From IMG/VR virus record IMGVR_UViG_3300023179_000498, positions 1 to 24,436 of that record: a stretch of DNA of 24,436 nucleotides. One strand, 5' to 3'. The notes under the pieces were generated by a model that worked only from the letters and a program-made list of their open reading frames with translations, was not told the origin of the DNA and did not search any database. Position numbers and translations under genes: made by a program. Position 1 is the stretch's first letter. Each line of letters begins with the position of its first letter. The stretch comes from a virus. Positions 3,664 through 24,353 of this stretch are shown one piece after another.

Positions 3664-3872
3664 TCGCTATAGAAGGCCTGAGCAAAAAACAGCAGATCAT
3701 AGCAGACTGTTTCTACTACAGGTGCCACACCCAACGTGATGTGGAAGCCGTACTCCATCACTACGGCAAGGACGCTCGCACAGTCTATGAGCTCTTGACC
3801 GCTGCCGCACTGGACAGCTACATGGAGACAGATTTGGCTCTAGAGCTGATTGACTACATCAAATCTAGATAG
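3660..3872 (+). CDS. 70-residue helical protein, GTG start
   Basis: GTG at 3660 overlaps the previous TGA by four bases and has AGGAG (3648-3652) seven bases upstream, so the start is well supported. The protein is helical (KKQQIIADCFYYRCHTQRDV, about 9-28, then RTVYELLTAAALDSY) and slightly acidic at its end. The AAA+ gene's promoter lies in its last codons. No family is recognised. Confidence 0.7.
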   Translation: MIAIEGLSKKQQIIADCFYYRCHTQRDVEAVLHHYGKDARTVYELLTAAALDSYMETDLALELIDYIKSR

Positions 3873-3878
3873 TATACT
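3850..3878 (+). promoter_or_regulatory. sigma70-type promoter for the AAA+ gene
   Basis: TTGACT at 3850-3855, 17 bases, TATACT at 3873-3878. It lies within the 3' end of the preceding gene and gives a leader of about 25 bases with AAGGAG before the ATG at 3910. Confidence 0.75.
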
Positions 3879-3909
3879 ACAGACTGTAAATAACACTAAG
3901 GAGAACCAA

Positions 3910-4782
3910 ATGGCACGTAAAGCCGCTACCAAAGCAAGCCCATCAACCAACATTCTAGAGTTTGATCAAGAAGCTATCAAGCTCAGAGAGCGTGAGGTAG
4001 CCAAAGAGACTGACGAGCAGATCCTTACCCGCTTGGACGAACGCTTCAAGATCCTTACCGAAATGACCAAGGCCGTCAAGCAGGGACATGTCACTGCCAT
4101 GATCGTATCAGGTCCTCCAGGCGTGGGCAAATCCTACGGCGTTGAGGCTGTGCTACAGAAAGAAGGACTGTTTGACGCCATAGCCGAACGTAAACCCAAG
4201 TATGAAATCATCAAGGGCGCTATGAGTGCGATCGGGCTCTACAGTAAACTGTTTGAATACAGCAACAAGGACAATGTGATTGTGTTTGATGACTGCGACT
4301 CAGTGCTACTCGATGAGATCAGCTTGAACGTGCTCAAAGGTGCTCTGGACTCATCCGAACGCCGTTTCATAAGCTGGAACACAGACAGCCGACTGCTCAG
4401 ATCAGAGGGAGTGCCTAACAGGTTTGAGTTCAAGGGTGCTGCTATCTTTATCACCAACATCAAGTTTGAACACGTTCGTTCAAAGAAACTTAGAGACCAC
4501 CTCAATGCACTAGAATCACGCTGTCACTATATTGACCTGCAGATGGATACTACTCGCGAGAAACTGCTGCGTATCCGTCAGGTTATCAACGAGAACGAGA
4601 TGCTGGCTCGCTATGAGTTTGATTCAGTGGTCAAACAGGAATTGATTGATTTTGTGGATGCCAACCGGGACAGGCTGAGAGAACTGAGCCTGCGCATGGT
4701 GCTCAAGCTGGCAGACCTTAAGCGGAGCTTTCCCCTAACTTGGCAGATGATGGCTCGTACGACCTGTATGAGACGCACATGA
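3910..4782 (+). CDS. AAA+ family ATPase
   Basis: 290 residues from the ATG at 3910, with AAGGAG 7 bases upstream. Walker A is GPPGVGKS at 68-75, Walker B is VIVFDDCD at about 123-130, and an ITN triplet near 180 fits sensor 1. The single AAA+ module follows a charged N-terminal helix of about 50 residues. ATPases of this size occur in many T4-type marine phages near the early region. Their partner and substrate are unknown; remodelling of a protein or nucleic-acid complex is the general family role. The C-terminus ends in an Arg-rich tail and overlaps the next start by four bases. It is too divergent to call gp44 clamp loader. Confidence 0.85.
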   Translation: MARKAATKASPSTNILEFDQEAIKLREREVAKETDEQILTRLDERFKILTEMTKAVKQGHVTAMIVSGPPGVGKSYGVEAVLQKEGLFDAIAERKPKYEIIKGAMSAIGLYSKLFEYSNKDNVIVFDDCDSVLLDEISLNVLKGALDSSERRFISWNTDSRLLRSEGVPNRFEFKGAAIFITNIKFEHVRSKKLRDHLNALESRCHYIDLQMDTTREKLLRIRQVINENEMLARYEFDSVVKQELIDFVDANRDRLRELSLRMVLKLADLKRSFPLTWQMMARTTCMRRT

Positions 4783-5568: not shown

Positions 5569-5797
5569 GCGCGGCCAATTTTTACCACTATATAGACCGG
5601 TCCAAAAACTTCTGACCCCTCACTAGACCAGTTTTAAAATTTTTTTTTGCTAGAAAATTTTGCCCTCTGCATAGACCTCACTGTGCAGCACAGCATGATT
5701 AAACTGTGGTATTCAGAGTTGAAATAGAATTCTAAGAGTTAAAGTCATTCAAAAAAGTGCTACCGATTTTCTGCGCTCCGCGCCGGGTTGGGCCGCT

Positions 5798-5805
5798 GCT
5801 AAATA
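5798..5805 (+). promoter_or_regulatory. T4-type late promoter
   Basis: GCTAAATA matches the T4 late octamer TATAAATA in its last six bases. With T4 spacing, +1 falls on the A of the ATG at 5811. No -35 box or ribosome site is seen. Confidence 0.6.
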
Positions 5806-5810
5806 TCTTC

Positions 5811-7352
5811 ATGCCCACAATAGTTTTAACACAAGGTTCAAATACAACTGCTACCACATTTCTATCCGGAGCTCAGGCTGTTCATTATGATGCTAAATTC
5901 AATTATCTACGTTTCGGTTTAATTAACAACATAACCTATCTCAGCAATCCCAGTTATGAAATTGCACATCGTATCAACTACACTCCCAGAGTAAAGGACT
6001 CAGCCGGACAAAACTATGCAGATCGTAGGGCCTTAATCAGTCTAACCACACAGACCTATGCGACCAGTGCCTATATTGACAGTATATTTTCAAGTCAGGG
6101 AGTCACAGCATTTAGCGCATTTTCAGGCGGTTTTACCACGGCCACCAATGGCACAGCAGTGACCAGTGCATTCGGTGTAGGCTCAGTGGTTGCAGCCCTT
6201 ATTAAGACACGCAACATCATAGTACTAGGGCAGATCAGTGCCATACGCTATGTTAACAAAAACAGTGCTGGAGTACCCAGTGCAGGAACCTTTCGTTACT
6301 ACATTAAGAGTTGGACCAAGGGTCCGGTCAGTGACCTGACCAGAACCTACACCACTGATGAAGACTGTGTGTTCATACCCCATACCATAGCATCCACTCT
6401 AATAGCCAAGGGAGCCTTGCCCATTAGGCCTAACCTCGTTATGACCATTACACCTCAGCTGTTGCCCAATGCCTACACCAATACACAGTATGTGAGCACA
6501 CTCACAGTAAAAGGAGGTATAGGAAACTATTCTTGGAGTATTGAGGGGGATGGTCAATTGCCCAGCTCATTTATCACTACAACGAATGGCATCAATAACA
6601 GCAAATACACAATTTCTGGCACTACTCGTTCTACCACGGGCACCTTTGCCTTTACACTGTTGGTCACAGACAGCGACAGTCAAGGCCCGAATACCAAGAG
6701 TCAGGATTTTTTACTCACTCTTGAGGAAGAAAATCAAAACCCTGCCTACCTGGATCCCTATTTAGGTGGTTGGAGTTATGATCCGGCTGGGGGTGGTGGT
6801 GGTGAATGTTTCCCTGCAGGATCTATGGTCAGCTTGGCCAACGGTCTAGATAAACTCATAGAACAGGTACTAATAGGAGACCGTGTTCTGTCAGGCCTGG
6901 GCAGTATTGGTACAGTAAGTGCTCTGCGTAGAGTACGACTAGGCTCAAGAAAGGCCTATAGAATCAACAATAGGTTAGTTACCACAGGTGATCATCTGTT
7001 TAGAACACAGCAGGGATGGGCAGCGGTTCTGCCCAGTCTATACCATGATCTACGTTTTAACGTGCCCATGCAGGTCATGGGTCCGGATGGTTCAGTTACC
7101 TTATTGAGTAGTGCCATTGACCCCTGTCAAGTACACAAACTGGAAATTGGCACCCTAGTGCAGACCAAACATGGCTTAGAAGAGATACAATCAATTGAAG
7201 AACTAGACCTCGCTGCAGATCTTGAACTGTATTCGCTGGTTGTTCTTGATAGTCAAACCTTTGTGTGTGAAGGTTTTGTAGTGGATGGTGCACCTCAGAT
7301 TCAACAGCAAGATCATGCGAGCACTATGGGATTACCCGCCCTTGCCCTATAA
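5811..7352 (+). CDS. virion-type protein with Ig-like region and C-terminal Hint domain
   Basis: 513 residues from the ATG at 5811; an upstream in-frame GTG at 5757 is rejected because the late promoter lies between. Residues 1-200 are Thr/Ser/Asn-rich, as in tail or baseplate proteins. Residues 210-305 resemble a bacterial Ig-like (He_PIG) domain: PxxxPNAYTNTQY, GGIGNYSWSI, LPSSF, ISGTTRSTTGTFAF and VTDSDS. A glycine linker (327-331) leads to Cys333 of CFPAGSMV, the start of a Hint (Hedgehog/intein) domain with the block B motif T392-G-D-H395 and a final beta pair YSLVVLDSQTFVCEGFVVDG. The usual terminal His-Asn is missing (VVDGAP), so full splicing is unlikely; N-terminal cleavage or transfer at Cys333 is possible. 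It is probably a late structural protein. Confidence 0.8.
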   Translation: MPTIVLTQGSNTTATTFLSGAQAVHYDAKFNYLRFGLINNITYLSNPSYEIAHRINYTPRVKDSAGQNYADRRALISLTTQTYATSAYIDSIFSSQGVTAFSAFSGGFTTATNGTAVTSAFGVGSVVAALIKTRNIIVLGQISAIRYVNKNSAGVPSAGTFRYYIKSWTKGPVSDLTRTYTTDEDCVFIPHTIASTLIAKGALPIRPNLVMTITPQLLPNAYTNTQYVSTLTVKGGIGNYSWSIEGDGQLPSSFITTTNGINNSKYTISGTTRSTTGTFAFTLLVTDSDSQGPNTKSQDFLLTLEEENQNPAYLDPYLGGWSYDPAGGGGGECFPAGSMVSLANGLDKLIEQVLIGDRVLSGLGSIGTVSALRRVRLGSRKAYRINNRLVTTGDHLFRTQQGWAAVLPSLYHDLRFNVPMQVMGPDGSVTLLSSAIDPCQVHKLEIGTLVQTKHGLEEIQSIEELDLAADLELYSLVVLDSQTFVCEGFVVDGAPQIQQQDHASTMGLPALAL

Positions 7353-7569
7353 GGCCGTGGTTCCCTGGCCCTGTATTCAAACTCGGGGCAGTATAGACTG
7401 GCTTCAAAGTGTGGATCTAGTAGAATCCTGGCTAGAACACCATGTGGGTCCGCATTGGTCAGAGTGGACATGGAGCATGTGGAGTCTGCACAATCACTAT
7501 CTCTGTGCGGTGAGTTTTAGGCGCGAATCTAACTGTAGTCTATTTTTACTGCGTTTCAGTCAAGGCTAA
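7315..7569 (+). CDS. 84-residue Trp-rich protein overlapping the Hint gene
   Basis: The frame opens at ATG 7315 (MRALWDYPPLPYKAVVPWP) and overlaps the last 38 bases of the Hint protein gene; an in-frame ATG at 7285 is an alternative. It contains eight Trp, including a WSEWTWSMW cluster at about 46-54, and no recognisable domain. No good ribosome site is visible, so translation would rely on coupling to the upstream gene. It converges with, and overlaps by 14 bases, the minus-strand nucleotidyltransferase gene. It could be a partner of the Hint protein, but function is unknown. Confidence 0.5.
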   Translation: MRALWDYPPLPYKAVVPWPCIQTRGSIDWLQSVDLVESWLEHHVGPHWSEWTWSMWSLHNHYLCAVSFRRESNCSLFLLRFSQG

Positions 7570-8242
7570 GACTCTGAGTAATCAAGTGTTCTACCTGATC
7601 CTGTAGTAGTTCTGTGAGTTTGTGATTGCGTAGATGTTTGTAGACTATGTTGGCTGTGGAGTACTCTCCTTGAGTTGAGGCCAAGCCCAGTTTACGATAG
7701 GATCGCAGCAGTTTCAATGTAGATTGGCTAAGATCCAGCTGTCTGCGTTCCAGCACAGCACTGAGTATGATTTCCCAGGCTGCGATTTCTGTTCTTACTG
7801 CCTCGGTGTCTATACGGGGGTTAACACGCTGCGGTCGATTGATCCAGCGATCCTGTTTGACACTGTAGAGTCCTTGACTTACACCTGGATGACCTTGATC
7901 TTCTACGTATAAGGTCACAGGTATACCATAGATAGTAACGGGTCGCTGCTGTTCATAGCGTAGACGTTTTACGTCAAACAGTTCTTCCAATTCTCTATCA
8001 CAGTCTGTGTCTGCATAGTCTGTTATAATGTGCAGGTCCATATCACTGTGTGGACCATAGTTATAGTTCACCATAGAGCCTGTGATCACTATGTCTATGA
8101 TGGGGAATTCAACTTCAGTGTATTTGACAAAGTCACGGGCTATACGCAGCAGCGCTCCTCGCACACTGTTTTTGAGTTTGCCCCTGGCTTCCCACAGTTT
8201 GGGGTTCAGTGTGGCCTGTGGTTCAAAGTCATAAGCTTGCAT
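7556..8242 (-). CDS. nucleotidyltransferase (DNA polymerase beta superfamily type)
   Basis: 228 residues. Residues 48-72 read PIIDIVITGSMVNYNYGPHSDMDL: G55-S56 and then D67-x-D69 are the GS...DxD signature of the pol-beta-type nucleotidyltransferase fold. A later strand VTLYVED (109-115) could supply the third carboxylate. The C-terminal 100 residues are helical, as in proteins that adenylylate or uridylylate RNA or protein partners. Genes of this type are common in T4-type marine phages, substrate unknown. A perfect T4 late promoter octamer lies 8 bases before the ATG, so expression is probably late. Divergent from the gene at 8272. Confidence 0.8.
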   Translation of the reverse strand: MQAYDFEPQATLNPKLWEARGKLKNSVRGALLRIARDFVKYTEVEFPIIDIVITGSMVNYNYGPHSDMDLHIITDYADTDCDRELEELFDVKRLRYEQQRPVTIYGIPVTLYVEDQGHPGVSQGLYSVKQDRWINRPQRVNPRIDTEAVRTEIAAWEIILSAVLERRQLDLSQSTLKLLRSYRKLGLASTQGEYSTANIVYKHLRNHKLTELLQDQVEHLITQSLSLD

Positions 8243-8271: not shown

Positions 8272-8838
8272 ATGGAAAACAGTTATCTAGGCAAACTCAT
8301 AGTGGCCAATCCCAGGAACCCCAAGGACAACCTTGAAAAAAGCGTCTTGATCGTGGTCACACACACAGCTAGAACCAGCATAGCACTACAGATAAACATG
8401 CCCCATGATAGCCTTACTCTAAGCAAGATCAGTGAAAACATAGGCATAGATCATGACGGAGATCAGCCCATATATTATGGCGGTACCGTAAATTCTCACA
8501 AGATTCACATCATACACAGTCTAGACTGGGCAGGTGTGAGCACGGTCAAACTCACAGATCAAATAGGCATAACCAATGATGTCAGTGTGCTCATGGCCAT
8601 AAGCAGTGGTGAAGGCCCCCAACACTTTAAGGCCTGTAGTGGTTACTATCTCTGGGACAATGGCATGTTGGATCTGCAGATCGATCCTACAAGTGTAATC
8701 CCTGGTGGTGCTGCTGGCAATCACAGGTGGGGCACCCTAGATGCCACCATAGGAAATACATTTTTAACTGAACCACATCAGATGTGGCCCCTGTGTCTAG
8801 ATCGGTTTCTAGCAGATCGTATCAGCGTGTATATGTGA
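8272..8838 (+). CDS. YqgE/AlgH-family protein
   Basis: 188 residues. The start YLGKLIVANPRNPKDNLEKSVLIVVTHTARTSIALQINMP matches the family opening (a loading of LIA-P, then SV-h-h-v-H, then G-h-h-hN-P). PIYYGGTVNSHKIHIIHS (about 65-82) matches the P-h-Y-GG-V motif, and KACSGYYLWDNGMLDLQI (about 122-139) matches the G...W..GQL-E segment. Bacterial members (YqgE, AlgH) are small single-domain proteins with no clear enzymatic role. A phage copy with a late promoter is unusual; its role is unknown. The plus-strand stop directly abuts the stop of the minus-strand helicase. Confidence 0.8.
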   Translation: MENSYLGKLIVANPRNPKDNLEKSVLIVVTHTARTSIALQINMPHDSLTLSKISENIGIDHDGDQPIYYGGTVNSHKIHIIHSLDWAGVSTVKLTDQIGITNDVSVLMAISSGEGPQHFKACSGYYLWDNGMLDLQIDPTSVIPGGAAGNHRWGTLDATIGNTFLTEPHQMWPLCLDRFLADRISVYM

Positions 8839-8846
8839 CTAGTCAC
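8835..8846. repeat. 12-bp perfect palindrome at converging stop codons
   Basis: GTGACTAGTCAC contains TGA (8836-8838), the stop of the plus gene, and CTA (8839-8841), the TAG stop of the minus gene. The two genes meet with no base between them. Confidence 0.6.
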
Positions 8847-10290
8847 GTTCCGGATTTAGATGTGACAACATATTTCTAATAGCTGGTGCTGTCTTTTGCG
8901 GAAGTTTGAGTTTGGTCGCACTTGATCCTTCTTTGGGATTGGCCACTCTCAGCATTTCTCCAGAATCAGGATCCGCTGTGCTCGCTGTGGATACCACACT
9001 GGTCCGTCGCAACATATTTGTCGTACTGCCGCGTTGCTGGGCCAAACTGTCTTGATCTTCTTCATTTAGATCTGTGATACGCAGAGTTTCCACATTGAAT
9101 TCTAGGTCTACCTTTTGCCCCACGCCCGAACTTGAGCGTGTCTTCATAAACTGTATTTGATAGCGTCCCCGTTCTTTCATGGCTCTTGAGGTAAAGATAC
9201 CTATCACATTGTCCGCAGTTTGAATCTTGCTCAGCCCTCCAGAAATATGACTGTGATCAAATTCAATTTCTTCTACGGCCGCACGATTAAGCTGGCTGGC
9301 TGTCACTGTGAGGCACTGTGTTTCCATGGCTAGGTTACGAATCTCTTCACTGACATATTTGTCTTTGACAAACAGATCGGAGGGCGATACCTTCACTGAC
9401 AAAGGCATCATTAAATCGAGGTAATCTATTAACAAAACGTCTGGTTTTCGGCCTTTTTTGACCTGATATTCTTTCAAATATGACCTTAAATCGTTGCAAT
9501 TTTTACCTGACGGCATATACTTGATCTGTATGCTTCCCGAACGTTTTTCCAGCATTTTTACCTTAAGTTCTACGTCATCTAGACTGCGAAAAATCTCTCT
9601 GGTTGATATGCCTGTGGTCATAGAATCCAGTCGCATGGCCACTAGATTTTCACTGAGTTCAAAAGTTAGATAGACCACATTAAGACCCATCATGGCCCAG
9701 TTTACGCCTAGATTGGCCAGGAATAGACTTTTACCTCCCCCCGATGCTGCGGCAAAGATATTGAGTTCTCCGCGATTAAATCCGCCATATAGTTTCTTGT
9801 CCACTGACGGCCAGCCTGTGCTGACCTGTCCGTTTGAGTTTTTAAGCAGTTCCAGTCTAGCTCTAGGATCTTGAAAATAGTCTGTGCCCATGTCTCTGTT
9901 CAAGCTGATCTGTATAGCGTCCTTGATCAGTTTTTCCACAGGATTGTATTCTCCAGTTTGCAGCAGTTCTGCGCTCTTAAGAATTGCCTGTTCCAAAGCC
10001 TTGTGTCTAGCAAAGCGTTCAAAGGTATCTATGAGCCAGTCATACATTTCACTGGGATATGTTTTAGTCTCAAGACATAGACCTGTGCTAGATTCTATAA
10101 TCTTCACATCCGGCATGATCTTGTACTGATCCACAAAATTATCTATAAACTCTGCTGCGGATCGCAGACGTTGATCAAAATTGCTAGGATTAAAAATGTT
10201 CTGACAGCGAGCAAATGAATCTGCATCACTGAGAAACATTTCTAAGAACTGTAGCTGTTGTTCATAGCTGTAGTTAGTTTGAGGTTTCAT
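8839..10290 (-). CDS. 41: replicative DNA helicase, gp41/DnaB type
   Basis: 483 residues. The RecA-like motor has Walker A AASGGGKS at 181-188, a catalytic Glu in LTFELSEN (Glu211) and Walker B DVLLIDYLD from 284. TASQLNR around 338-345 is the DnaB-family motif H3 region, and a late QFMKTRSSSGVG block holds the arginine finger. The N-terminal 130 residues are helical, as in DnaB and T4 gp41. It would unwind DNA at the fork, loaded with the primase encoded just upstream (17-base overlap with it). The 60-residue C-terminal tail is Thr/Ser-rich and unusually long. It is transcribed toward, and ends exactly at, the YqgE-like gene. Confidence 0.92.
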   Translation of the reverse strand: MKPQTNYSYEQQLQFLEMFLSDADSFARCQNIFNPSNFDQRLRSAAEFIDNFVDQYKIMPDVKIIESSTGLCLETKTYPSEMYDWLIDTFERFARHKALEQAILKSAELLQTGEYNPVEKLIKDAIQISLNRDMGTDYFQDPRARLELLKNSNGQVSTGWPSVDKKLYGGFNRGELNIFAAASGGGKSLFLANLGVNWAMMGLNVVYLTFELSENLVAMRLDSMTTGISTREIFRSLDDVELKVKMLEKRSGSIQIKYMPSGKNCNDLRSYLKEYQVKKGRKPDVLLIDYLDLMMPLSVKVSPSDLFVKDKYVSEEIRNLAMETQCLTVTASQLNRAAVEEIEFDHSHISGGLSKIQTADNVIGIFTSRAMKERGRYQIQFMKTRSSSGVGQKVDLEFNVETLRITDLNEEDQDSLAQQRGSTTNMLRRTSVVSTASTADPDSGEMLRVANPKEGSSATKLKLPQKTAPAIRNMLSHLNPERD

Positions 10291-11281
10291 ATTCTATTTT
10301 TTTCTTAAGTAGTTGCTGTTTAATTGGATTAGTTTCTTTATAGTGCAGTATTGTTGCCAAGGTATAGAGTCTACCATATTGAGTGACCGCATCTGCTGTG
10401 TCCTTGATCTGTTCTGTCCATGGAGGCACACTCACTGACCAACCGTATTCTAGAGCATTGTCTATTAATTTAGCCCCTGCACGATCTCTATCAGGTACAA
10501 CTATGACTTCACGATTCAAGCTCTGTATTCTTGAGGCCTGGGCAGAATTGCATTCATTGTTCAATATGGCCACACCGTCTATGGCTATGGCATCAAATGG
10601 GCCTTCTACCACTATCACATATTTTCTTCTGGCTGTCTGTGCATCAAGATTGAAAACATAGGATGGTTGACTATCTGAAATATATTTGGGCTTGCCTGCT
10701 GTGATTTTTCTTGCGGTATAACCTACTATTTTATCTTGATAGTAAAAAGGGATTACCACTCTATCTCTATAACCCGGTGCATCGCTTGCGTGCCAAGCAT
10801 ACCAATCTAGTTCAAAGCGTCTTGTTGCCAGATAAGCCACAATGTTGAACAATCTTTGTTCTTGTTCCGGATCATGTTTAATACTCAGCAGTTCTTTAAG
10901 ATTTTGGCTATTTAAGGGCAATTGTTTTTGAATAAGATCAAAACTAAATTCACGTTTTGCACTGGGTTGATTATCTTTGACTTTGAGAGTATATAGGTTA
11001 AGTCTGCCTATATCATCTTGATTCATACCTAGATATTTGAATAAATCTTTGGTATTCTTACTGAGTAATTTACCCTGACTCCAACCTGCTTTGAAACCAC
11101 AATTAAAGCAGTGATATTGAAATCCGTCATTGGCATTGAGCAATATACCACCGCGTTTTTTAGTATCTCTGCTTTCTCCTCTGTTTGAGCAGCAGGGAGC
11201 GTTGAAGCTGGTCCATCCACTGGGTGTAGATTTACGTTTAGTGGGTAAGACTGCTAGCAGTGCTGACTGAATTTCGTTCAC
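10274..11281 (-). CDS. 61: DNA primase, gp61 type
   Basis: 335 residues with a GTG start at 11281. An N-terminal zinc-binding module uses Cys30/Cys31 and His57, Cys58, Cys61 (FQYHCFNCGFKAGW). The TOPRIM catalytic core has VVEGPFDAI (Glu226) and VVPDRDRAG (Asp264, Asp266), the acidic triad of T4 gp61 and DnaG. It makes RNA primers for lagging-strand synthesis together with the gp41 helicase encoded next. Ribosome signal before the GTG is weak, so coupling to the preceding virion-type gene is possible. A GTG start is uncertain, but no better ATG lies nearby. Confidence 0.9.
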   Translation of the reverse strand: MNEIQSALLAVLPTKRKSTPSGWTSFNAPCCSNRGESRDTKKRGGILLNANDGFQYHCFNCGFKAGWSQGKLLSKNTKDLFKYLGMNQDDIGRLNLYTLKVKDNQPSAKREFSFDLIQKQLPLNSQNLKELLSIKHDPEQEQRLFNIVAYLATRRFELDWYAWHASDAPGYRDRVVIPFYYQDKIVGYTARKITAGKPKYISDSQPSYVFNLDAQTARRKYVIVVEGPFDAIAIDGVAILNNECNSAQASRIQSLNREVIVVPDRDRAGAKLIDNALEYGWSVSVPPWTEQIKDTADAVTQYGRLYTLATILHYKETNPIKQQLLKKKIEYETSN

Positions 11282-12138: not shown

Positions 12139-12522
12139 ATGTCAGTTCATAGTTCTTTCCAAGAAAATTATCCTTTTATATCCTGTATCAGATCTAATGA
12201 TGTAGAATATGTTGGAATTATCATTAATTTTGATAATTCAGTTGCCAGCATCTACGATATTGGAGGCCTACGCAATGATGAAGAAAGAACTAAATTTCTA
12301 GAACTTGGAGAGGTTTGGTGGTGGGAAAGTAATCGTAAAATACCTATTAACATTTTTCTCAAAAAAGAAATGCATATTTTTCGTACATTAATTAAAACAT
12401 TTAACAGCAAAGATATTGAAGTTATTTTTGGTCCTATCACTAACCTAGGCGATATTGCCGAAAAACGCATAAAACGCAAATCAATACAGTTAGTTAGAAT
12501 TCCTAAGAATATTCATGGCTGA
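12139..12522 (+). CDS. 127-residue protein of unknown function
   Basis: ATG 12139 is divergent from the virion-type gene, separated by 17 AT-rich bases. The product begins with a beta-rich segment (FISCIRSNDVEYVGIIINFDNSVASIYDI, about 13-41), then EVWWWESN at 58-65, then a long basic helix-rich part ending KRIKRKSIQLVRIPKN. It has a high Ile/Lys/Asn content in line with the AT-rich right half. No ribosome site or late octamer in its own orientation is seen. It converges with the DnaE-like gene and overlaps it by 20 bases. No function is recognised; intact length and codon pattern support a real gene. Confidence 0.65.
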   Translation: MSVHSSFQENYPFISCIRSNDVEYVGIIINFDNSVASIYDIGGLRNDEERTKFLELGEVWWWESNRKIPINIFLKKEMHIFRTLIKTFNSKDIEVIFGPITNLGDIAEKRIKRKSIQLVRIPKNIHG

Positions 12523-13081
12523 TGCTGTCGCAGATCAAATTCATCTGAACTACAATAAGACTGGCATAGGCTATAGCATGTGATTTTTTAAAATAGAATT
12601 CATTGTTATCTGGTTTCTTCCATATTTCGTTCATCACTGTAGTCCAATCTTTCCCAATCAGATAACGTTTCGCGGGGCGTATCATGGCCAAAACTGCCGC
12701 TAGTTGGGCTACAGTCTTTGGCATCATTTCTCTTAAGATCGAACCATGTCCGTTGACGTGAAATAGCAAATTGACGAAATCGTCCTGTTCCAGTAGTTCC
12801 CATAGCGGCTCCTTGTTCATTAAATCAACAAGATGTTCTTCACTAAGAATGTGTTTATACACACTGACATTTAGTAAATCTATCTTAAAATAACCACGAT
12901 GCTCTGCCTGTTTATAGTCTATATTGGCAGTCATAGTTATCGGGTTATAGGGTATTTGTTGGCAATATACGCCTGTATTATGACGTTTTAATTGTGTGTT
13001 ATCGTCTATGGCAGCAGGGATATACTGTATCACCTTCAGTATATGTGATCTATCTGCAAAGTCGATATCGATATCAGGCAT
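12503..13081 (-). CDS. miniature DnaE-like (C-family DNA polymerase alpha) protein
   Basis: 192 residues, against about 1,160 for E. coli DnaE. It opens PDIDIDF (2-8), equivalent to the palm motif PDFDVDF that supplies two catalytic Asp (Asp5, Asp7 here). RHNTGVYCQQIPYNP (33-47) parallels the KHAGGVVIAP segment; GYFKIDLLNV (63-72) parallels LVKFDFLGL, whose Asp (Asp68 here) is the third catalytic residue. LLFHVNGHGSILREMMPKTVAQLAAVLAMIRPAKRYL (105-141) parallels FQLESRGM...ALFRPGPL. YFKKSHAIAYASL (163-175) parallels FNKSHSAAYAL. All motifs are collinear, with the intervening parts shortened and PHP and C-terminal domains missing. It overlaps the cupin gene by 8 bases and is the last gene of the operon. 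Function unknown: polymerase remnant, minimal enzyme or replisome decoy. Confidence 0.75.
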   Translation of the reverse strand: MPDIDIDFADRSHILKVIQYIPAAIDDNTQLKRHNTGVYCQQIPYNPITMTANIDYKQAEHRGYFKIDLLNVSVYKHILSEEHLVDLMNKEPLWELLEQDDFVNLLFHVNGHGSILREMMPKTVAQLAAVLAMIRPAKRYLIGKDWTTVMNEIWKKPDNNEFYFKKSHAIAYASLIVVQMNLICDSISHEYS

Positions 13082-13460
13082 GATCTGTTAGTTGACTGTC
13101 ACCAGGCAAAATTCTATAATTATCTTCTTCGCTATCCGGTGTTGATACTTCAATAATTGTACCTTCTTCTAGACAGATAACCTGATGTGGAAATAATGGA
13201 GGATTATGCCAAGTGTCACCAACTGATAAGATTTTTTCGTGCAGCACAGCAGTAACAGTATCTATGTATTTTAAAATAAATTTTCCTTCTAACACATACC
13301 ATGTTTCATCTTTTTGGGCATGGAAATGCATACTGAATTTTGCGTCTTTGTTGAACTTTAGGAATTTACCACAGTATTTGTCGTTGGTGCACCAAATTAG
13401 CTCATGTCCCCATTTTTTTGGTCTCATACCTTGGTATCGCGTTAACTTAGTGTTTTGCAT
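13074..13460 (-). CDS. cupin-domain protein
   Basis: 128 residues forming one cupin barrel: FSMHFHAQKDETWYVLEG (43-59) is motif 1 with His45, His47 and Glu52, and NPPLFPHQV (86-94) gives the second-motif His92, the usual four metal ligands. The opening RPKKWGHELIW resembles mannose-6-phosphate-isomerase-type and sugar-pathway cupins. Its place inside the heptose operon, between the HldE kinase and the DnaE-like gene, suggests it modifies or binds a sugar phosphate or nucleotide sugar. It overlaps the kinase gene by 14 bases. Exact reaction unknown. Confidence 0.8.
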   Translation of the reverse strand: MQNTKLTRYQGMRPKKWGHELIWCTNDKYCGKFLKFNKDAKFSMHFHAQKDETWYVLEGKFILKYIDTVTAVLHEKILSVGDTWHNPPLFPHQVICLEEGTIIEVSTPDSEEDNYRILPGDSQLTDHA

Positions 13461-14205
13461 TCTGTATCTCTTCTAAAGTTGGAGCGTAGTTACCTCTACG
13501 CTGTGCTGTTATTCCTGCAGCCTGGTTAGCAAATACTATACTTTCTTCTAATTTTCCTGTCAATAGAAAACTATATGTTAAGGCTGATAAGAAGGTATCT
13601 CCGCAGCCACAAACATCTGTTACTGCTACTGGTTTGGTCGGTATTACCCTTTCTTGATCTAATTTCTTTAACATGGCTCCTTCACTGCCTTTGGTTACTA
13701 TTAGGTAATCGGGAATAGATGAACATTGATTGTATTCGTGTTCGTTAATTTTTATCATTACATGGTCCGCATTAAATCTCCTAAGGTCCGTTTTTTTTGT
13801 ATCAATAAAAATTGGACATTTAAATTTTAAAATACAATGTTCAATATGTTCATAGGATAAGAATCCTTTGTTATAATCTGAAATTACTAGAGCATCATAA
13901 TTTGTAGAATAATAGGTTTGATGCCACGGCACTGTTACAGGTTCGTTGTCTACTCTCAATAACTGTTGTCCAGATTTTTTGTCTATGTATCTGGTTTTAG
14001 TAATTAATGATGTGTTGGTTATAAAATCTACAAATAGCCCAAATCTTTCTAAATTTAATTTTACATTTGCAGCCATACCTGGTAGACGTGTTTCGTCGAT
14101 ATTTTTTAACACAGGTACAGGAGCTTCTGGACTGAGTCTGTCAACAGATCCAGTCATATACACATCTATACAACTATCCCCTATCAATAATACGTTGAAT
14201 AACAT
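13447..14205 (-). CDS. HldE/RfaE kinase domain (heptose-7-phosphate kinase type, PfkB family)
   Basis: 252 residues. LIGDSCIDVYMTGSVDRLSPEAPVPVL (7-33) is the diagnostic RfaE/HldE domain I opening, GMAANVKLNLERFG (43-56) is the PfkB nucleoside/sugar-binding motif, and DVCGCGDTF (197-205) holds the anion hole and catalytic Asp203. The family phosphorylates D-glycero-beta-D-manno-heptose 7-phosphate at C1. It is shorter than the usual HldE kinase domain (about 310-330), the loss lying in the middle lid region. In bacteria it is usually fused to the nucleotidyltransferase; here the two are separate, overlapping genes. Confidence 0.85.
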   Translation of the reverse strand: MLFNVLLIGDSCIDVYMTGSVDRLSPEAPVPVLKNIDETRLPGMAANVKLNLERFGLFVDFITNTSLITKTRYIDKKSGQQLLRVDNEPVTVPWHQTYYSTNYDALVISDYNKGFLSYEHIEHCILKFKCPIFIDTKKTDLRRFNADHVMIKINEHEYNQCSSIPDYLIVTKGSEGAMLKKLDQERVIPTKPVAVTDVCGCGDTFLSALTYSFLLTGKLEESIVFANQAAGITAQRRGNYAPTLEEIQNAKH

Positions 14206-14575
14206 TTGTGGTTGAGTATTTTTCTAGTCTATCAAAGAATTCAATTTTTTTACAGAATTCTCTACCTATTATTGGTTTATCTTTATAATCTGATCCTTTG
14301 ATCATTAGATCTGGTTGGATATTTTTTAACAGATCACGAAGCTCCTCATCGGTATCAAATATATCTACTCTATCTATGCTTTTTAATTCAAACAGTAAAG
14401 TTGAACGTTCATATTCCGTATGTATTGGTCTTTGGTATCCTTTAAGTTCTCTTATGCGCCTATCACTGTCAATCAATACATGAACATAAGAATTTACAAA
14501 TGATCTAGCATGTCTAAATAATCTAATATGACCAAGATGTAATATGTCAAATGTTCCATTAATGGCTATTTTCAT
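14174..14575 (-). CDS. HldE-type heptose-1-phosphate nucleotidyltransferase
   Basis: 133 residues. NGTFDILHLGHIRLF (6-20) is the cytidylyltransferase signature GxFDxxHxGH, KGYQRPI (46-52) and IKGSDYKDKPIIG (93-105) match domain II of HldE, and the end KYSTTNVIQRI parallels the ISSTxII-x-RI nucleotide-binding motif. It would join heptose 1-phosphate to ATP, giving ADP-heptose. It overlaps HldD upstream as ATGA and the kinase gene downstream by 32 bases. Confidence 0.88.
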   Translation of the reverse strand: MKIAINGTFDILHLGHIRLFRHARSFVNSYVHVLIDSDRRIRELKGYQRPIHTEYERSTLLFELKSIDRVDIFDTDEELRDLLKNIQPDLMIKGSDYKDKPIIGREFCKKIEFFDRLEKYSTTNVIQRIIDRG

Positions 14576-15345
14576 AACTGGTAATGTAGGCTTAATCGTG
14601 TTGTATCTGCACAGGTGTATCTTTGATACTGTTTTTTTACATTCTCTGGCATTGGTATGTATTCGATGACTGCTTCATACTTATCGGCAATTTCTCTAGC
14701 AACCTGTTCAAATGATTGTGTCTTTCCAGTGCCTACATTCCATATACCCGATTCTTTTACTGTAAAGAATTTTTTATGTATATCAATTAGCTTATCAACG
14801 TGAATAAAGTCTCTATGAAAGTTTTCAGATCCTTCAAATAATCGAATTACACCTGTTTCTTTGGCCTGCTTTTCAAATTTGTAAAATGGGCTGGCCTGCG
14901 AACCTTTATGATCTTCACCCGGACCGTAGACATTAAAATATCTAAAACCTTGAACTACAATATCTCTATACTGTTGACCAGCTGAAACTCTATCGAAAAG
15001 ATACTTGCTCCAAGCATAGGGACTTTGGGGACTAATTGGACCATCCTCTCTAAATTCTTCTAGCTGGCCATACACACTGGCTGAACTGGCATACTGTAGA
15101 TTAACCTTGGCCATTTGACAGGCTACCAACAGCATACAGGTAAAGTCATAATTTTGTTTAAGTATTTTTTCTACATCTGTCTCTGTAGTCGATGAAATGG
15201 CTCCTAGATGTATACACCAATCTAATCCTTCAAAGTCCGGTAAAGGTTGACCCCAATTATAAAGAACTAGGTCATGTTCGTGCTTCAGAGCATTCAGCAT
15301 ATTTTGCCCAATGAAACCTTTATAACCTGTAAGCAATATTTTCAT
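14572..15345 (-). CDS. hldD: ADP-heptose epimerase (HldD/RfaD type)
   Basis: 257 residues. GYKGFIGQN (7-15) is the dinucleotide-binding glycine motif; HLGAISSTTETD (46-57), YASSASVYG (85-93) and GFRYFNVYGPGEDHKGSQASPFYKF (about 132-156) are characteristic of HldD, with Tyr110 and Lys114 (YAWSK) as the extended-SDR catalytic pair. HldD converts ADP-D-glycero-D-manno-heptose to the L-glycero form used in LPS inner core. It is about 50 residues shorter than the usual 310. It overlaps both neighbours as ATGA. Confidence 0.88.
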   Translation of the reverse strand: MKILLTGYKGFIGQNMLNALKHEHDLVLYNWGQPLPDFEGLDWCIHLGAISSTTETDVEKILKQNYDFTCMLLVACQMAKVNLQYASSASVYGQLEEFREDGPISPQSPYAWSKYLFDRVSAGQQYRDIVVQGFRYFNVYGPGEDHKGSQASPFYKFEKQAKETGVIRLFEGSENFHRDFIHVDKLIDIHKKFFTVKESGIWNVGTGKTQSFEQVAREIADKYEAVIEYIPMPENVKKQYQRYTCADTTRLSLHYQL

Positions 15346-15725
15346 AGTTCACCGGATCCTGCTAACTTTAAAATTAAACTATATTGTTCAAATACTTTTT
15401 GAACTGCTGGATATTTTCTTGCTAAAAATTTTTCACGTTCTTTTTGTTCCATCATCGTTTCAAACATTCCATAGTGTCCATGTGATTTCATATGATTGAA
15501 TACCTGCTCTTCAAAATCTGCAATACGGTTCAATTCACTTTCTGAGATTTCCAAGGTATACAACGTTTCTGTGTCATGAAAGATTTCTTGGTTAACTCTG
15601 TTATAATTTGTCGAATCTTGGAAATAGTTATTCACATTAATTTTGGTTACCCGTGAAGCACGTTTGTTGGTATCTAATAGTTTTATCTGATGTCTATTAC
15701 AAAAAGTTTTGATGTTATTATTCAA
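15342..15725 (-). CDS. conserved T4-type phage hypothetical protein
   Basis: 127 residues with a TTG start at 15725, chosen because AAGGAAG lies about 6 bases upstream. The middle (FHDTETLYTLEISESELNRIADFE) pairs a strand with a helix, and the C-terminal 55 residues (MMEQKEREKFLARKYPAVQKVFEQYSLILKLAGSGEL) form a charged helical region. Proteins with the same ending are familiar from T4-type cyanophages, without function. It overlaps the preceding gene by 8 bases and hldD by 4, so it belongs to the same transcript. Confidence 0.7.
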   Translation of the reverse strand: MNNNIKTFCNRHQIKLLDTNKRASRVTKINVNNYFQDSTNYNRVNQEIFHDTETLYTLEISESELNRIADFEEQVFNHMKSHGHYGMFETMMEQKEREKFLARKYPAVQKVFEQYSLILKLAGSGEL

Positions 15726-16419
15726 TTCCTACTTCCTTACATATTTCTTTTACCAGAGCAACATCTGCCGGAGATTTTTTAAATGTATTTTTCCAATATG
15801 CTAGATCAAATGCAGGAGATATAATTTCTAATTGTTCGTCGCTCATGTTACTTACCATACCATATCCCGACTTGGTATTCAGTATGACCCAGGGACTTAT
15901 TTTACCATTTCTGATATCTTGTGTAGCTCGATTTAAGCTAACATAGAGAAAATAATGTGCGAACTGTGCTGACTTTTCTTCTGCCCATTCCATCATGGTT
16001 TGCAGTGTTCTTTGCACAGCAGATTCTACTGGCTCGGTTTTTATTGTTTCATAGAGATAGGTTTCATACAGTTTATCTCTGCACCAGTCATCTAATTTAA
16101 CGCCACTTTTTATTACCCAATCTACGAATTTTTCTGGATATAACGGATTTACATTATTAAGAAAACTACCAAATTTAACAAATGCGTTATAGTATGAACT
16201 GTCTGCAAATTCATCATAGGTCTTTGGTTTTTTGGCACGTTGAGTGATTTGCCAAAAACGATTAAAGGCCATAAAACCGGCCTGAACACGTTTTTCAGTT
16301 TCCTGTAAGGCTCGGCGTTTGCGTTCGCACATATGGGAAAATAAAGTTCGAGAGAGGGAGAATTTTTTAGAACAAAATTGACAAATATGCGGTTGTTCTA
16401 ATAATTCAATTTTAGCCAT
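15718..16419 (-). CDS. zinc-finger protein of unknown function
   Basis: 233 residues. The N-terminus has C13-x2-C16 and H29-x-C31 (CQFCSKKFSLSRTLFSHMC), a single C2HC-type zinc finger followed by a basic stretch ERKRRALQE. The remaining 190 residues are helical and aromatic-rich with no known domain. The finger plus basic helix suggests nucleic-acid binding, perhaps in late transcription or DNA processing, but this is inference. A 49-base gap, the longest inside this operon, precedes it, so a promoter is possible, though none is clear. Start at ATG 16419 has no strong ribosome site. Confidence 0.7.
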   Translation of the reverse strand: MAKIELLEQPHICQFCSKKFSLSRTLFSHMCERKRRALQETEKRVQAGFMAFNRFWQITQRAKKPKTYDEFADSSYYNAFVKFGSFLNNVNPLYPEKFVDWVIKSGVKLDDWCRDKLYETYLYETIKTEPVESAVQRTLQTMMEWAEEKSAQFAHYFLYVSLNRATQDIRNGKISPWVILNTKSGYGMVSNMSDEQLEIISPAFDLAYWKNTFKKSPADVALVKEICKEVGIE

Positions 16420-23429: not shown

Positions 23430-24353
23430 TCAATAGAAACTATTAATTCTACCTGGACAATTTTTATTACAGAAAGATTTCTCATCTGGGCTTTTGATCT
23501 CTTGATAAAAATATTTTTTAAAGAGATCATGTTCTATAATTTCATCTATATAAAAATCATTTAATGATAGTAGAGGTAGATCTTTAATTCTGTCTATTCT
23601 ATTAAATGGATCTATAGCTGTCCAGCAACAAGGCCAAACTGTGCCATCTGCCATTATTTGGAGTTGTTTGTATCTTGTCCAAAAGCAATCTTTATCTGTA
23701 TTTAGATCGTTTATAAAAGGAAAATTACTTTCATCAAAGTCCATTCTCTTATAGATTAAAAAATCTTTTTTATTAAGTTTAGATAAAGATTCAAAATCGC
23801 CATATGAATTAATTATGTTAAATGTTTGAAAGCCATATTGTTTAGCGAGATGTCTTGCTTTTATGATATCATTTTTATTTTCTTCAAATGAAATGATTTG
23901 CCATCCTGCTATCCCTCCTGAATTTATAAAAGTTGATGCATTTTCCAAAACATTTTCAAACTTTGTATTAATTCTATGTTTAGAGTGGGATGCGTTTGTT
24001 GCACCATCTAAAGCAAACATGACTCTATGATTTTTAAATTCTTGTAAAATTTTTGATAATTGAATCCAATAATCCTTAGATCTAATACTACCATTCGTAC
24101 ATATCTGTATGTTAAGTGATCTTGGTAAAATATCGATAAATTCTATTGAATTTGGATGGCATATAAAATCACCATAATTACCATTGAATCTAATAATTTC
24201 TAATTTTTCCAGATTTCTGGGTCTTAAAATTTTTAACCAAAGACCCATATCCATATGGAAATAGTTATCTATTAGTTTTCTTGCACACCCCGGACATTTG
24301 GCATTACATACTGAAGTTATCTCTATTCGCCATTGTTTTATATCTTGCCAAAT
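23430..24353 (-). CDS. radical SAM protein, probable ATT start
   Basis: 307 residues if begun at ATT 24353. The iron-sulphur motif CNAKCPGC (Cys16, Cys20, Cys23) lies upstream of the first ATG (24254), so an ATG start would delete it. ATT at 24353-24351 shares one base with the preceding TAA (TAATT, same geometry as the TAATG junctions elsewhere), with GGAG just upstream. The core shows GNYGDF, QICTNGSIR and FALDGATNASHSKHRINTKFENVL, as in radical SAM barrels. The C-terminus carries VWPCCW and FCNKNCPGR, a SPASM-like cluster site. Substrate unknown. It may begin instead after a sequencing error. Confidence 0.75.
   Translation of the reverse strand: MWQDIKQWRIEITSVCNAKCPGCARKLIDNYFHMDMGLWLKILRPRNLEKLEIIRFNGNYGDFICHPNSIEFIDILPRSLNIQICTNGSIRSKDYWIQLSKILQEFKNHRVMFALDGATNASHSKHRINTKFENVLENASTFINSGGIAGWQIISFEENKNDIIKARHLAKQYGFQTFNIINSYGDFESLSKLNKKDFLIYKRMDFDESNFPFINDLNTDKDCFWTRYKQLQIMADGTVWPCCWTAIDPFNRIDRIKDLPLLSLNDFYIDEIIEHDLFKKYFYQEIKSPDEKSFCNKNCPGRINSFY

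Follow-up and report, generated by a model that had tools for sequence, protein, structure and literature searches.

A protein of 192 residues encoded in the window, as we call the whole stretch of 24,436 nucleotides analysed here, appears to be one part of a split, minimal polymerase of the bacterial type. Specifically, sequence profiles and a predicted structure point to the metal- and template-binding half (hereafter the C-half) of a C-family nucleotidyltransferase whose two halves would dock and extend DNA 3' ends, a reading to which we assign a probability of roughly 0.7. Such split polymerases were previously recognised from sequence comparison, and the window provides a further member of their family. 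Iyer et al. 2021 (PMC7824862) reported that group 2.2 jumbo phages carry a phage-specific minimal Pol III alpha beside a B-family polymerase. This enzyme consists of two proteins whose genes lie far apart, an N-terminal one that binds NTP and a C-terminal one that binds Mg and the DNA template, and the same authors suggested that it might aid the B-family enzyme in the synthesis of one strand or in repair (PMC7824862). We here identify these two proteins with the families PHROG 11778 (the C-half) and PHROG 11127 (the N-half). The original prediction, which was made from the DNA letters, had called such a gene unexpected in a T4-type phage and proposed to look for it in others; it is found, and had already been described, in T4-related jumbo phages (PMC7824862).

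The available portions of two earlier genome papers also note a Pol III alpha-like protein (PMC5259590, PMC6102473), in phage CBB as a truncated Pol III alpha of 172 residues (PMC5259590). By sequence comparison this CBB protein is most likely the N-half: the N-half of RaK2 is 172 residues long, the CBB match covers 172 of 172 and the place is annotated as DNA polymerase III alpha. The place of the C-half in CBB is entered in GenBank as 'putative membrane protein' and 'hypothetical protein'.

Homology of the C-half to bacterial DnaE

The ORF call on the window puts the gene at 13081..12503 on the minus strand, so that the coordinates first given for it hold and the strand is corrected; in the frame translated, the plus strand of the same coordinates contains many stops. 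The protein begins MPDIDIDF and continues, in order, with KRHNTGVY, FKIDLL, LLFHVNGHG...MIRPAK and FKKSHAIAYA, and the five DnaE-like segments quoted in the original prediction are thereby all present in the order quoted. The main features are collected in Table 1.

Table 1 Features of the C-half gene and its surroundings in the window
Feature	Position	Strand	Basis or remark
C-half of split minimal Pol III alpha (putative), 192 aa: PDxDxDF strand, KHxxG, KxD, fingers, KxH helix	12503..13081	-	PHROG 11778, profile vs DnaE, model and PDB comparison
PDIDIDF, residues 2-8	13058..13078	-	aligned with DnaE MPDIDIDF and Taq 461 onwards
Lys66-Ile67-Asp68 (DnaE VKFDFLG), third catalytic Asp	12878..12886	-	K66 and D68 identical in 106/106
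Lys165-Lys166-Ser167-His168 (DnaE NKSH), fingers helix	12578..12589	-	His168 in 104/104 uncut ORFs
Convergent 127-aa gene, PHROG 11637	12139..12522	+	20-base overlap with 3' end of the C-half gene
PHROG 11058 protein, N-terminus Cys/His finger-like (by eye)	15718..16419	-	usual upstream neighbour
Heptose-like cassette: cupin, PfkB kinase, cytidylyltransferase, epimerase	13074..15345	-	Pfam/PHROG families
gp61-like primase	10274..11281	-	place matches annotated RaK2 gp61
gp41-like helicase	8839..10290	-	place matches annotated RaK2 gp41

The proposed DnaE-like, C-family identity is backed in agreement by PHROG assignment, family profile and structural comparison. In the PHROGs search the C-half matches PHROG 11778, 'DNA polymerase', at E=2.1e-64, and PHROG 405, the family of full-length phage DnaE, at E=6.5e-8. 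A phmmer search of the PDB with the single C-half sequence returned chance rows only and nothing relevant, and the homology to solved DnaE chains thus requires a profile or a structure. Likewise, Pfam yields only sub-threshold fingers matches, for the C-half itself (E=0.11) and at E<=1 in 41 of 49 family members, the best at E=0.0017, so that Pfam alone would miss the family. A profile built from the alignment of these 49 relatives (A2; alignment A1 covers 34 loci) matches the solved DnaE chains 5lew and 7pu7 at E=1.6e-4 and 5e-4. This match consists of four stretches in rising order, including PDIDIDF and KSHAAGY, of which each is weak individually and the second and third overlap in the query; the same profile matches E. 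coli and Taq DnaE more weakly, at E 0.5-1. The structure listing names M. tuberculosis DnaE1 for 7pu7, and we take 5lew to be the same protein. Aligned by hhalign with three phage DnaEs, the C-half scores E=1.9e-4 with a probability of 47%, KHxxG, KxD, RP and KSH being aligned, a weak result that follows from a DnaE alignment of three rows only (the scan for relatives of full-length phage DnaE yielded one locus). Apart from PHROG 11778, no individual sequence score for this homology is large.

The AlphaFold model of the C-half has a mean pLDDT of 91.6 and a pTM of 0.81. Foldseek places bacterial replicases at ranks 1-14 (best E=7.5e-4, one row at E<=0.001), and VIA-align superposes 188 of the 192 residues on residues 461-841 of Taq DnaE (3e0d) with Z 9.8 and rmsd 3.8. 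Fourteen solved polymerase entries lead the VIA-align list at Z 6.3-9.8, followed by the first unrelated row at Z 3.1; middling Z values may come from common arrangements, and the weight of the comparison lies on this gap and on the coverage. That other folds do not appear in these lists is no evidence against them. Three entries titled 'DNA polymerase' only (9qpc, 9qrn and 9qrl) are presumed by us, also from their residue ranges, to be C-family (PolC). Taken together, the sequence profiles and the predicted structure make a secure case that the C-half is homologous to the palm and fingers of bacterial Pol III alpha (DnaE). Both a profile search and a structure prediction had been proposed as checks, and both return the C family, the former through PHROG 405 and the chains 5lew and 7pu7, the latter through the alignment with the DnaE palm and fingers.

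As judged from profile alignment and model, the C-half corresponds to the DnaE palm and fingers, beginning with the PDxDxDF strand and reaching the KSH helix, and has lost two large segments in between. The three catalytic Asp are retained, as predicted, but two of them had been misnumbered: Asp68 stands, and the first two are Asp3 and Asp5 in place of Asp5 and Asp7. The alignment puts MPDIDIDF of the C-half on MPDIDIDF of M. tuberculosis DnaE1 and its residue 1 on Taq 461, and Asp3 and Asp5 therefore fall on Taq 463 and 465, presumably the catalytic pair and equivalent to 401 and 403 of E. coli DnaE; the VIA-align rows for E. coli start at 400, one residue off this register. Asp7 is the third Asp of the PDIDIDF motif. 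After collapsing duplicates among 126 C-half ORFs to 106, D3, D5, D7, H34, G37, K66 and D68 are identical in all 106, so that the proposed check for Asp conservation in homologues revealed no loss. K138 and H168 are identical in all 104 ORFs uncut by contig ends, the other two (L192 and L193) being cut before the last motifs.

The regions between these motifs had been described as shortened throughout. Two large gaps are indeed found in the profile alignment with 5lew, in which approximately 101 residues are missing from the interval that separates the first Asp motif from KxD and approximately 87 from the one that separates RPxx from KSH. The FQL...RPG stretch is not shortened (query 89-137 versus E. 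coli 592-641). A stretch of about 144 residues in DnaE, which carries the thumb, is reduced to about 43 in the C-half, and the regions lost are largely the thumb and the outer fingers. The PHP and C-terminal domains are absent, as predicted, all aligned parts of the 192 residues lying within Taq 461-841.

The N-half partner and its pairing across phages

Triphosphate binding in the DnaE catalytic palm depends on a GRGS-type loop. The C-half chain, which starts at MPDIDIDF, contains no GRGS motif; the GRGS-bearing part, named the NTP-binding subdomain (PMC7824862), is found in related phages as a separate protein of roughly 160-180 residues. The Pfam family DNA_pol3_alpha (PF07733) matches a separate ORF above cut-off in 5 of 10 records searched, namely Atu_ph07, RaK2, Phosso and two large IMG/VR contigs; two further contigs give sub-threshold matches and three records, including the window, give none. 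These five ORFs encode 161-177 residues and belong to PHROG 11127, 'DNA polymerase'. Within the 24,436 bases of the window, neither the PF07733 search nor an N-half profile finds the N-half.

The N-half profile matches 92 short ORFs, and every one of them stops 29-31 residues past GRGS, the point at which DnaE has a short loop leading to PDxDxDF. They reduce to 59 distinct sequences, leaving out three ORFs of more than 400 residues that are full-length DnaE (L200-L202), and G134, G136, R137, G138 and S139 of GxGRGS are constant in 59 of 59. The model of one N-half ORF (pLDDT 88.7) aligns over residues 61-168 with DnaE/PolC up to E. coli 393, adjacent to the start of the C-half alignment at about E. 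coli 400. All 16 rows of this structural comparison are bacterial replicases, with Z up to 10.7, and the first ~60 residues of the model lie outside every row; the best Foldseek row has E=0.028, and PDB profile matches have E=0.055 or worse. No ORF among 223 sequences is matched by both profiles as a fusion of the two halves would be, with the proviso that a diverged fusion could escape, since the C-half profile missed three full-length phage DnaEs at E<=1e-5. A GroES-like co-chaperonin ORF lies near the N-half gene in all five loci read by eye (L084-L088).

The halves occur together. The sample comprised 28 records, each picked because it contains one half or both, and 21 of them carry the pair. 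Among the first 22 records, 15 carry both halves, four the C-half only and three the N-half only, the seven single-half records all being virus contigs of 107-213 kb, and both halves are present in all 14 records of at least 250 kb. The other six are divergent phages, each with one of each half at E<=0.001: Alishewanella phage Slicko01, Stenotrophomonas phage RAS14, Pseudomonas phage 30-3, Salicola phage SCTP-2, Vibrio phage 2.275.O and Xanthomonas phage XacN1. Two additional N-half matches of SCTP-2 at E<=10, both weak (E 0.009 and 0.022), fall in long frames, and we take them as chance. All 20 large (at least 250 kb) or complete records hold one copy of each half. In GenBank phages there are 63 matches per half, and 58 of the 60 accessions listed are common to both, counts that include phages entered under two accessions. 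Of the unshared accessions, Slicko01 and RAS14 proved to carry both halves, and the other two are PP728206 (a 109-kb record) and OP883945. A second N-half query, taken from an IMG/VR relative, matched 157 records, including full-length DnaE of other phages.

The two genes are separated by as little as ~11 kb (Slicko01) and as much as ~224 kb (Phosso); in one further record (G020) they lie 324 kb apart in record coordinates, and its ends may adjoin. Slicko01 is by its record a complete circular genome of 141 kb, which means that the pair is not confined to phages larger than 200 kb. The best 80 IMG/VR relatives are 63-74% identical. The coexistence with a B-family polymerase anticipated in the original prediction is seen in every one of the 20 large or complete relatives described above (one extra record repeats RaK2), and no match to such a polymerase lies within the 24-kb window itself. 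A DnaQ-type exonuclease domain (PF00929) is found in only 9 of 15 genomes and is therefore not shown to be a fixed partner.

Genomic neighbourhood

The surroundings of the gene were compared across 125 C-half loci, some of which are truncated at contig ends or represent a place already counted, so that they are not independent genomes. The usual neighbours are PHROG 11058, PHROG 11637 and the gp61/gp41 block. Specifically, PHROG 11637 is present in 115 of the 125 loci, every time on the opposite strand and downstream of the C-half. PHROG 11058 is present in 111, and in loci that lack the heptose genes it mostly lies near the C-half; 93 loci have the gp61-like primase and 80 the gp41-like helicase, a shortfall that comes partly from the contig-cut loci. 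The PHROG 11058 copy in the window has no Pfam match at 0.01, and its RaK2 orthologue has a weak C2H2 match (E=0.008). Further T4-like genes in the window encode a UvsW-like helicase and RecA/UvsX-like, gp32-like and UvsY-like proteins.

The original prediction had assigned the gene to a heptose operon, which does not hold across relatives. Homologues of the cassette occur in only 5 (epimerase), 10 (cupin), 12 (kinase) and 12 (cytidylyltransferase) of the 125 loci, which places the C-half outside a heptose operon; the cassette is a variable insertion between two conserved genes, separate from the polymerase. A role of the C-half in the heptose pathway was rejected on the same counts.

Several other genes in the window were also noted. 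The 531-residue protein at 5757-7352 (+) has a Hint-type (intein/hedgehog) domain from near residue 350, with PF05203 at E=2.4e-4 and PF01079 at E=0.0013, both under the Pfam cut-off, and no PHROG match at 0.01. At 7556-8242 (-) lies a Pol beta superfamily nucleotidyltransferase (PF01909 E=2.5e-4; PHROG 36119) of a family distinct from the C-half, and at 8272-8838 (+) an AlgH/DUF179-like protein (E=2.4e-17) with no PHROG match at 0.01. An AAA ATPase of PHROG 1250 with weak similarity to clamp loaders is encoded at 3850-4782 (+), and a SPASM/radical SAM-type protein (PF13186 E=1.5e-5; PHROG 21308) at 23430-24254 (-).

Proposed mechanism and alternative readings

The available data are best explained by a model in which the N-half and the C-half dock and thereby rebuild a single palm. 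In this assembly the N-half would grip the triphosphate of the dNTP, Asp3, Asp5 and Asp68 of the C-half would hold two metals, and the docked pair would add nucleotides at a DNA 3' end. Synthesis would be distributive, given the missing beta-binding domain and the ~43 residues in place of ~144; as the thumb is mostly lost and the fingers partly so, processive synthesis may be impossible. The lack of a beta-binding part and the little thumb that is left make short, distributive synthesis more plausible than bulk replication, and the pair would most likely work beside the T4-like B-family replicase on short synthesis, for instance in recombination-primed synthesis, in repair or in the filling of gaps. 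No biochemical study of split Pol III alpha activity was found among the literature matches listed, and the available portions of PMC12926913, PMC8504454, PMC6892783 and PMC11242549 contain no activity test.

A more far-reaching version, in which the two halves form an obligate heterodimeric C-family polymerase and PHROG 11058 and PHROG 11637 act as DNA-holding subunits that replace the thumb and clamp-binding parts, is tentative, and we regard it as rather unlikely. If it were true, a single phage replisome would combine an archaeo-eukaryotic-type B polymerase with a second engine of bacterial type, a very small C-family polymerase.

The two halves could also form an enzyme of the Pol beta fold that transfers nucleotides without copying a template, for instance in tailing, in end modification or on small molecules. 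The DnaE regions that grip duplex DNA are largely deleted, and nucleotide-sugar genes adjoin the C-half in some phages, both of which would fit such an activity, as would the Pol beta-type catalytic fold of the C family (PMC7824862). However, none of the 104 uncut ORFs deviates in the fingers residues RPxK and His168, and replication genes are the usual neighbours whereas sugar genes vary; we accordingly judge a non-templated enzyme improbable.

The remaining readings are far less probable. The C-half mimics part of DnaE and might on that ground bind the host replisome as an inhibitor or as a decoy, the latter a possibility raised in the original prediction. Yet the catalytic residues are identical in all ORFs of both halves even though C-half relatives diverge down to 39% identity with the window protein, and the alignment stops at Taq 841 of ~1,220, so that the later clamp- and tau-binding regions are not kept, which makes a decoy very improbable. 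That the C-half by itself is a complete, self-sufficient minimal polymerase, a further suggestion of the original prediction, draws on its three retained catalytic Asp, but the chain contributes the metal/template half only: it lacks GRGS and the first palm helices, and all 20 large or complete relatives encode the NTP-binding half in a gene of its own, leaving this reading a still slimmer chance. A functionless, decaying remnant of an acquired host dnaE could account for the large deletions relative to DnaE and is the least credible of all, as the motifs are constant in 106 distinct ORFs, the gene place is constant and the halves are present as a pair.

Significance and comparison with known systems

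If the two halves of the preferred, split polymerase do rebuild an active site, these phages would possess a miniature replicase core of bacterial type beside their T4-type replicase. An active pair would offer a tractable model for the minimal needs of a polymerising C-family fold and would furthermore allow a test of the idea, put forward in the available portion of PMC7824862, that minimal forms model ancestral replicases. The present analysis adds one more member to the family, and its pairing counts, split point, residue correction and 141-kb occurrence sharpen a testable prediction.

Like bacterial DnaE (Taq 3e0d/2hpi, E. coli 2hnh), the C-half carries PDxDxDF, KHxxG, KxD, RP and KSH in the same order and shares the predicted fold over nearly its whole length. 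Unlike the C-half, bacterial DnaE is one chain, of 910-1,220 residues in the solved structures, that includes the GRGS part. Bacterial DnaE has further domains in the form of PHP, a full thumb, a beta-binding domain and an OB domain, and the C-half chain differs from canonical DnaE and PolC in being without GRGS, PHP, beta-binding or OB domains. With the full-length phage DnaE of PHROG 405 the C-half shares a homologous catalytic core; in contrast to the C-half, the DnaE of Bacillus phage 019DV002 and Enterococcus phage 9183 is uninterrupted, with 1,031 and 1,284 residues that carry GRGS and PDIDxD in one chain.

The closest counterpart is the split Pol III alpha of Iyer et al., with which the window shares the C-half family and the T4-like genes, and its relatives share the B-family polymerase and the separate N-half. 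Unlike most loci of this kind, the window, a 24-kb virus record in which the partner N-half gene is not found, has the heptose insertion that is seen in few relatives.
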